From positions 1 through 36,310 of the forward strand of contig JAIFLB010000068.1 of assembly GCA_020049245.1 (NCBI GenBank): 36,310 nucleotides of DNA. The letters are read 5' to 3'. A program made the position numbers and the translations under genes. Origin of the DNA: Betaproteobacteria bacterium. GTDB taxonomy: Bacteria > Pseudomonadota > Gammaproteobacteria > Burkholderiales > Thiobacillaceae. Below the pieces are notes generated by a model. The model made no database searches and was not told the DNA's origin. It saw only the letters and a list, made by a program, of their open reading frames with translations. Shown here one piece after another: positions 20,662-23,192 of the stretch (position 1 is its first letter; each line of letters starts with the position of its first letter).

Positions 20662-21486
20662 ATGCAAAACACCAACCTGACCAGCCGAACCAGACTTTCC
20701 CTGATCTCGCTCAGCCTCGCTCTTGGCCTTGCGCTTTCGGCTCCAGTTCAGGCTGAAGTCGAAACCTTTGCTATCGATACCGCGCACAGCTTCGCCAACT
20801 GGGAATTGCGCCATATCGTAGCCCGCACGAGCGGGACTTTTCACGACATCAAGGGCACTGTCGTACTTGACTTGAGCAACCTGGCCCAATCATCAGTCAA
20901 TGCCGTGATCAGCGTTTACAGCCTGAATTCGAGCCACCTGCGGCGTGATGTACACACCTTGACCGACGAATTCCTCGATGCACGCAATTATCCCGAGATG
21001 AAGTTCGTCTCCACCAGCGTCACCCCCCTCACCCCTGACAAAGGCACAATCAAAGGCCAACTCAGCCTGCATGGCGAGACCAAGCCAGTCACCATGGACT
21101 ATCAGATACTGGGTATCGGTCCGGATCCCTGGGGTGGCATGCGTGCTGGCTTCAAAGCCACCACGCGCATCAACCGATCCGATTTCGGCATTACGAAATA
21201 CACACCGACAGGCCCGGTCGGCAATGAAGTCGATATCACGCTGTTGATTGAAGGCATCAAACAAGGCCCCGATGGCAAACCCTGGAATGCGAAAGCTGCC
21301 GCCGAAGAAAAGGCAAAAGTTATTTCCTACCCGATGCCGACGCAAACCGCTCCTGTACCTGTCGTCGTCCCGGTCCCGGCACCCGTGGCTGTTCCTACGC
21401 CAGCACCTGCACCTGCACCTGCACCAGTGAAAAAGGAAAGCGCGGAAGATCAGTTGAAGAAAAAACTGAAAGGTCTATTCAATTAA
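20662..21486 (+). CDS. YceI family periplasmic protein with Pro/Ala-rich C-terminal extension
   Basis: 'FAIDTAHSFANWELRHIVARTSGTFHDIKGTVVLDL', 'MKFVSTSVTPL', 'GFKATTRINRSDFGI' are YceI motifs; signal peptide present. Confidence 0.92.
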   Translation: MQNTNLTSRTRLSLISLSLALGLALSAPVQAEVETFAIDTAHSFANWELRHIVARTSGTFHDIKGTVVLDLSNLAQSSVNAVISVYSLNSSHLRRDVHTLTDEFLDARNYPEMKFVSTSVTPLTPDKGTIKGQLSLHGETKPVTMDYQILGIGPDPWGGMRAGFKATTRINRSDFGITKYTPTGPVGNEVDITLLIEGIKQGPDGKPWNAKAAAEEKAKVISYPMPTQTAPVPVVVPVPAPVAVPTPAPAPAPAPVKKESAEDQLKKKLKGLFN

Positions 21487-21709: not shown

Positions 21710-22333
21710 CTAGATCGCATCCCGAATATCGCCGAGTAGAGCCCGCTTCAGGTTCTTTTGAATCGGCCGCTCACCCAGCCATATCTTCAGCAAACTTCGA
21801 TTGAAGGCCGCGCCGGGTACCGCGCCGAGAAAATGCTGGTTCAACCAGACACGGGTTCCAAGGGTCGGCAGGTAATCCATTTGCACAATGCCACCTTTGG
21901 GAATACGGCCGATTTTGTGCATCAAGCTCATGAACTGATCAATTGGCGCCTGAATCGCGGCGAGTTCCTCGGCACTATTGTTGTCGGTCAAGCCGCCCAA
22001 CAAATACTTCAAATCCTGCTGAGCCGAGACATCACGTAATAGCGTGATGCGCAATCGACGCGGAATATCCTGATCAAGAATGTCCTGCGGATCATTCAGC
22101 TTGCGCGGCAAGTAGAGGGCAATCTGGTAAATATCCAGAAACAGCAAATTCCGCACACCGACGCCATTCAGGACCAGTTCGAACGACTTCAGGCTAGCCT
22201 GGCTTTCGATGATTTCAGCCGGGCGGTTACTGGCAAAGCCATCCGTTGGCGTACCCGAGAAAGCCAGGCAAACCAGACTGGCAGCGCAAGCAGTGCGTCG
22301 CCCCTGCCGAGTCACGCTTGATTCCAGGTGCAT
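21710..22333 (-). CDS. Chalcone isomerase-fold domain protein, exported
   Basis: 'LKSFELVLNGVGVRNLLFLDIYQIALYLPRKLNDPQDIL...PRRLRITLLRDVSAQQ' matches the bacterial chalcone isomerase-like domain. Start placed at ATG 22333 (MHLESS), which overlaps the stop of an upstream small ORF; the longer ORF start (22381) is less likely. Confidence 0.8.
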   Translation of the reverse strand: MHLESSVTRQGRRTACAASLVCLAFSGTPTDGFASNRPAEIIESQASLKSFELVLNGVGVRNLLFLDIYQIALYLPRKLNDPQDILDQDIPRRLRITLLRDVSAQQDLKYLLGGLTDNNSAEELAAIQAPIDQFMSLMHKIGRIPKGGIVQMDYLPTLGTRVWLNQHFLGAVPGAAFNRSLLKIWLGERPIQKNLKRALLGDIRDAI

Positions 22334-22488
22334 CAGAATGCGAGTTGTAGCCAATCCCCCAGGCAAGGGTCGGATGCGCATTCACTGAAGCCACAGAAAT
22401 CATCCTCGCTGTCACCAGGCTGAATAACATCCTCCATTTCGTCATCCTCAATTGGCTCACGCAATTCAGTTTCCCATTTGATCGACAT
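22333..22488 (-). CDS. Small acidic Cys-containing ORF (51 aa), not in the ORF track
   Basis: MSIKWETELREPIEDDEMEDVIQPGDSEDDFCGFSECASDPCLGDWLQLAF*; SD-like GGAG upstream of the ATG (gcggagtgagtcATG); its TGA overlaps the ATG of the downstream CHI-fold gene (TGATG). Confidence 0.6.
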   Translation of the reverse strand: MSIKWETELREPIEDDEMEDVIQPGDSEDDFCGFSECASDPCLGDWLQLAF

Positions 22489-22491
22489 GAC

Positions 22492-22656
22492 TCACTCCGC
22501 TTTAAAAAACAGGTGAATATCATCCTGAAGTGTCGTGAAGCTTCGATGACAATTTTCAAAAACCTTGGCTGAAACAACGACTTCAACCAATTCGCCTCCG
22601 TATTTCAACCATTTCCAACCATTTCCAGAGACTGCGGCACGGTTTGAGGTTGCCAT
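22492..22656 (-). CDS. Small ORF (54 aa), not in the ORF track
   Basis: MATSNRAAVSGNGWKWLKYGGELVEVVVSAKVFENCHRSFTTLQDDIHLFFKAE*; ends 3 nt before the next small ORF on the same strand. No strong SD at the ATG. Confidence 0.5.
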   Translation of the reverse strand: MATSNRAAVSGNGWKWLKYGGELVEVVVSAKVFENCHRSFTTLQDDIHLFFKAE

Positions 22657-22724: not shown

Positions 22725-23127
22725 GGAGTTGGCCAGGCAGCCGCTGCACGGTTTACCGCGTAGAGGAAAGTCCGGGCTCCATAGGGCAGAGTGCCAGGTA
22801 ACGCCTGGGCGCTATAAGTCGAGGGTGCAAACCCCGGCCCAAGGCGACGGAAAGTGCAACAGAAAAGATACCGCCGATGGCCGGTCGAGAGACCGGATCA
22901 GGCAAGGTTGAAATGGCGAGGTAAGAGCTCACCGCGGACGTGGCAACACGGACGGCAAGGTAAACCCCACTCGGAGCAAGGCCAAATAGGCAGGCACGTC
23001 AATGGCCTTTACGGCATTGACATCGGCGGCCCGTCGAAGCCTGCGGGTAGGCTGCTTGAGGCGCGGGGCGATCCGCGTCCCAGATGAATGGTTGCCCTCG
23101 ACAGAACCCGGCTTATCGGCCAACTCC
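22725..23127 (+). ncRNA. rnpB: RNase P RNA (bacterial type A)
   Basis: Contains 'gaggaaagtccgggctccatagggcagagtgccaggtaacgcctggg' and 'cagatgaatggttgccctcgacagaacccggcttatcggccaactcc'; 5' ggagttggcc pairs with 3' ggccaactcc. Confidence 0.95.
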
Positions 23128-23192
23128 CCCTTTCTTTTCGTTAGCTGCCCAACTTCATCGCAGCGACCACCCAATTTCTAAGCATTTCCAAC

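Follow-up and report, generated by a model that had tools for sequence, protein, structure and literature searches.

Within the 36,310-nt window analysed here (the whole stretch under study, positions 1 to 36,310 of contig JAIFLB010000068.1, assembly GCA_020049245.1, from a betaproteobacterium of the family Thiobacillaceae), the minus strand carries an operon that, judged from its sequence, is made up of two genes: orfB (22488–22333), encoding an acidic protein of 51 amino acids, and a gene for a chalcone isomerase (CHI)-fold protein of 207 amino acids with its start corrected (21710–22333). We consider it fairly probable that this operon is controlled by PhoB and pairs an orphan cytosolic small protein with an exported FAP-like carrier of lipids or fatty acids, serving phosphate-sparing remodelling of the membrane. 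An initial annotation had proposed a three-gene operon headed by a further small frame, orfA (22656–22492, minus strand); the linkage of orfB with the CHI-fold gene was borne out, and orfA had to be given up as a gene. On re-reading the sequence, the coordinates and translations of orfA and orfB, their separation by 3 nt, the GGAG motif before orfB and the TGATG overlap after it were all exact. Two features had been missed, namely the RNase P RNA gene rnpB (22725–23131, plus strand; RF00010, 300 bits), a divergent upstream neighbour lying outside the operon, and a PHO-box promoter located inside orfA.

Conservation in other genomes alone lifts orfB above chance. A profile search recovered homologues in six genomes, all of the window's genus, with identities of 84% in G002 (probably record CAMDHJ010000002.1), the nearest relative, and 65% in G007 (probably record NCGJ01000008.1). 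No convincing homologue appeared among the 398 order-level and 369 class-level genomes sampled, viral contigs contained none, and there was no match in Pfam, NCBIfam or PHROGs. Of the weak orfB-like matches in other genera (E 0.008–0.1), the one in G273 read on inspection as TPR-like sequence, and the others were set aside because they scored poorly or lay in long or stop-interrupted frames. In the two closest pairs of genomes, where dS is least saturated, dN/dS (NG86) was 0.093 (window genome G000 versus G002) and 0.131 (G020 versus G015), below the value of 0.235 obtained for the CHI-fold gene in the first of these pairs. Invariant residues include W5, E6, R10, D20, E28–D30, C37, A38, C42, G44 and W46, several of them falling in a conserved C-terminal module, CA[ST]xxCxGxW. 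The proposal that orfB is an unannotated small gene was thus upheld by purifying selection at the amino-acid level, and the pattern of substitution marks it as a real gene. Its product has a pI of about 4 and yielded a low-confidence structure model (pLDDT 58) with almost no structure. Taken with the two-cysteine module, this acidity and near absence of structure suggest a binding peptide or a metal site; the protein is probably cytosolic and largely unstructured, and CA[ST]xxCxGxW may contact a protein partner or a metal.

The same comparison spoke against orfA. In the closest relative, G002, several stop codons and gaps that shift the frame break up its reading frame; a homologue search did not recover it in the other genomes with orfB; and it lacks a Shine–Dalgarno (SD) sequence (anti-SD duplex −1.9 kcal/mol). 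The window contains 25 ATG-initiated ORFs of 50–60 amino acids, so that the length of orfA is unremarkable. What looked like peptide conservation (CHRSFTxxQDD) was confined to the promoter region, the PHO box and −10 element being the sole conserved stretch of orfA, and this case illustrates that conservation of a promoter may be mistaken for conservation of a peptide. An intact ATG-to-stop frame directly upstream of orfB is what remains in favour of orfA as a real first gene of the operon; given the disrupted frame in G002, its absence from the other orfB genomes, the missing SD and the position of the promoter, which would leave most of orfA untranscribed from that start, we regard this as highly improbable and treat orfA as a chance frame lying over a promoter.

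This promoter consists of a predicted PhoB site (22552–22535, minus strand; TTGTCAT-CGAA-GCTTCAC) followed after exactly 10 nt by the −10-like hexamer GATGAT (22524–22519, minus strand), from which transcription would be expected to start at about 22513–22510. A PHO-box-like element precedes orfB in all six genomes, with its 3′ end 44–48 nt from the ATG, and in each case [GCA]AT[GC]AT begins after a spacer of exactly 10 nt; for G002, the box and −10 are those of the second of two overlapping registers. Using a matrix built from five classical E. coli boxes and five pstS-region boxes of the genus, the six orfB boxes reached a summed score of 83.4, compared with a shuffle maximum of 43.6, where the six genomes are related and non-independent and the shuffles ignore kinship. 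The window's box alone was marginal (p = 0.057), deviating in its second half-site (TTCAC rather than TGTCAC) and having a −10 match of 4/6, and the claim of a PHO box therefore rests on the six genomes together.

Similar elements were found elsewhere in the genus. A second matrix, derived from the orfB boxes alone and requiring a −10 at +10, placed pstS and ppk2 of G000, btaA of G000 and G002, a phosphoesterase gene of G007 and a pyruvate-kinase-like gene of G008 higher than any of the 173 control upstream regions. Lower-scoring Pho candidates, beaten by 4–5 controls, were pstS of G007 and btaA of G007, G011, G014 and G021, while the top-scoring control region itself turned out to lie upstream of a PlcP-like gene in G017. 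A strict genome pattern, searched in G000 and G007 only and loosened beforehand to admit the orfB site, gave nine matches, and none when reversed as a control; these fell at pstS (two), orfB (two), PPK2, a phosphoesterase, two PEP-CTERM proteins and a 94-aa protein. Because the orfB site was provided for in this way, it is the matches at other genes that are informative. Among them is the PPK2 polyphosphate kinase gene (TIGR03707), whose strong PHO box likewise stands 10 nt from the −10 (L087; G000:C52:6085–6117, plus strand). A further PHO-box-like match beside the CHI-fold gene of G007 (L065:9957) falls at the start of a T2SS-G gene and was judged to be coding sequence.

A PHO box at a fixed distance from a −10 element, as in a PhoB regulon, is accordingly present before orfB in six genomes and also at pstS, ppk2 and btaA, and we infer PhoB control of the orfB operon. 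Regulators of the OmpR family also bind phased direct repeats, the −10 of orfB is unlike the TAnnnT of pstS and btaA, and the window's site is weak alone; on these grounds a different OmpR-type regulator might use the element, or the signal to which the operon responds might be other than phosphate. Against this, the same box and 10-nt spacing recur at pstS, ppk2 and btaA of the genus, and we hold such a reading to be rather unlikely, retaining PhoB as the predicted regulator.

Several of these upstream matches merit separate mention. The two PEP-CTERM proteins (L094, G000:C211, and L092, G007:C29) are alike in their N- and C-termini and share the PHO-box-like upstream element, and the 94-aa protein behind such an element (L091:1201–1482, minus strand; G000:C110) has no family match. 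A pyruvate-kinase-like protein (613–615 aa; L071:6249–8090 and L078:5303–7150, both minus strand; the former PRK14725) is preceded in both genomes by PHO-box-like elements, with CHI-fold genes nearby.

Downstream of the promoter, the initial annotation had read a GGAG SD-like sequence and a TGATG layout typical of translational coupling, and both were found as described. The GGAG lies at 22498–22495 (minus strand) and forms an anti-SD duplex of −6.1 kcal/mol; five of the six genomes had an orfB duplex between −6.1 and −9.2 kcal/mol, compared with −6.0 kcal/mol for the 5th percentile of random window sites. No SD of its own was detected for the CHI-fold gene in any of five genomes (−1.5 to −2.4 kcal/mol). 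The stop/start overlap TGATG (22335–22331, minus strand) is identical in G000, G002 and G007; in G020 the junction reads TGA-AT-ATG, with a 2-nt gap, and in G021, read across two contigs overlapping by 36 bp, a TTG within orfB may serve as the CHI-fold start (frame derived manually). Stop and start codons that overlap or nearly overlap, with no independent ribosome-binding site downstream, are the mark of a coupled pair, and this conserved overlap before an SD-less gene makes translational coupling of the CHI-fold gene to orfB likely. The shift of the CHI-fold start to 22333 also proved sound, since in G002 an in-frame TGA separates the equivalent of the ATG at 22381 from the TGATG start; a start at 22381 is contradicted by this stop.

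Such an arrangement could mean that orfB is a leader ORF only, which loads ribosomes onto the SD-less CHI-fold gene that it overlaps, its short, acidic and predicted unstructured peptide being inert. That would leave unexplained an amino-acid-level dN/dS of orfB lower than that of the CHI-fold gene, as well as the persistence of orfB in G015, where a homologue search found no CHI-fold match. The G015 sequence after orfB resembles the G020 sequence after the CHI-fold gene, suggesting that the latter was lost in G015. We therefore consider a leader-only orfB improbable and favour a peptide with a function beyond coupling.

The CHI-fold protein belongs to Pfam Chalcone_3 (PF16036; E = 2.8e−40, 138.5 bits versus a cut-off of 27). 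Its fold assignment rests on sequence matches, the single-sequence AlphaFold2 model reaching a pLDDT of only 36. An N-terminal signal peptide, judged by eye, indicates that the protein is apparently exported. Bacterial CHI-fold proteins probably resemble the non-catalytic proteins from which the plant flavonoid enzyme evolved; in the literature searched we found no described function for them, and nothing relevant linking them to phosphate starvation or to DUF3419. Convergent with the CHI-fold gene lies a gene for a YceI-domain protein with an Ala/Pro/Val-rich tail (20662–21486, plus strand). YceI proteins are binders of isoprenoid-like lipids, and a link between the two genes is possible.

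The neighbours of the cassette differ between genomes (rnpB in G000 and G002, a phosphoesterase/5′-nucleotidase gene in G007, and btaA (DUF3419), divergent from orfB, in G021), which indicates that promoter, orfB and CHI-fold gene travel together while their surroundings change. The cassette does not adjoin lipid genes in G000, G002, G007 and G020. CHI-fold paralogues, on the other hand, adjoin such genes: in G014 the order is btaA, a btaB-like methyltransferase, HAD, an OlsB-like gene and the CHI-fold gene (similarly in G004); in G011 the paralogue adjoins btaA; and in G017 it follows an OlsB-like gene transcribed divergently from genes for a PlcP-like phosphoesterase and two GT4 glycosyltransferases. 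The OlsB-like protein scored 169 bits with the NCBIfam OlsB model, below the cut-off of 350, and is thus a homologue rather than a proven OlsB. The phosphoesterase, presumably a PlcP judging by its sequence, had only Metallophos and weak LpxH-like matches in family libraries. The orfB-linked CHI-fold proteins formed one clade (100/100) and the bta/ols-linked ones another, each tested against the other. Joint descent, a shared predicted Pho promoter and this lipid-remodelling neighbourhood lend support to a functional link between orfB and the CHI-fold protein. As G015 and G020 have no DUF3419 match, betaine lipids are not the setting in every orfB genome. Two further observations concern btaA: in the window's genome it is split over two frames (L062/L063; G000:C70:9413–10493) by a frameshift, as a pseudogene or through an assembly error, and in G021 the interval separating it from orfB holds a long inverted repeat, GGAGCCTGTCGG...CCGACAGGCTCC (L034, about 300–420).

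These findings suggest the following course of events. When phosphate is scarce, phosphorylated PhoB would bind the PHO box, which would take the place of a −35 element; RNA polymerase would then initiate just downstream of the −10, producing a short leader that supplies orfB with its SD site. Ribosomes ending orfB would then re-initiate at TGATG to make the CHI-fold protein, which, once exported, may bind a fatty acid or lipid intermediate while phospholipids are swapped for phosphorus-free betaine, ornithine or glycolipids; the orfB peptide would meanwhile act as more than a coupling leader. More tentatively, and with rather more doubt than belief, we propose that the two proteins are undescribed parts of lipid remodelling under phosphate starvation, the CHI-fold protein carrying acyl chains or diacylglycerol in the periplasm in the manner of a FAP, and orfB representing a new family of cytosolic proteins, small and acidic, that tunes a partner in lipid synthesis or phosphate signalling. 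With orfB, a regulon that can be tested under well-defined culture conditions would gain a small protein confined to one genus and unmatched in the family libraries searched, and phosphate-free membrane lipids offer a testable physiological setting for bacterial CHI-fold proteins.

As for known systems, the only credible PDB relatives of the CHI-fold profile were the plant fatty-acid-binding proteins FAP1 (4doo, E = 2.9e−5) and FAP3 (4dol, E = 0.0025). These have an invariant Arg and Tyr in the N-terminal segment corresponding to that of the invariant R61 and Y69 here, although this segment aligns only weakly. Plant FAPs are plastid-located, whereas the present protein is bacterial and apparently exported, and its ligand binding is putative. 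From these relatives, the invariant R61 and Y69 and the gene neighbours, we put the chance that it binds a fatty acid or lipid intermediate during replacement of phospholipids by phosphorus-free lipids at a little short of even. The main doubt on this reading comes from the yeast CHI-fold proteins Aim18p and Aim46p, which are likewise non-catalytic relatives with a functional conserved arginine, and which bind heme and need that arginine (PMC9996372). By analogy, the exported protein could be a hemoprotein, or bind another ligand, with the lipid-gene neighbourhood incidental. The fungal proteins are mitochondrial and were absent from the PDB sequence matches. Those matches comprised plant FAPs only, and CHI-fold genes are repeatedly placed with btaA, OlsB-like and PlcP-like genes; we judge this alternative unlikely, if worth keeping in mind, and prefer a lipid or fatty acid as the candidate ligand. 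Predicted Pho boxes precede olsB homologues in Burkholderia (PMC7814305), and Pho-regulated clusters for phosphorus-free lipids of the plcP-btaAB and plcP-agt types, with Pho boxes, have been described in marine bacteria (PMC4796936). The genus studied here resembles the latter in its predicted PHO boxes and in the occurrence of btaA and btaB-like genes, a PlcP-like phosphoesterase and GT4 glycosyltransferases with CHI-fold genes; it differs in that the window's operon stands alone beside rnpB and in having the exported CHI-fold protein and orfB, neither of which belongs to the described clusters.
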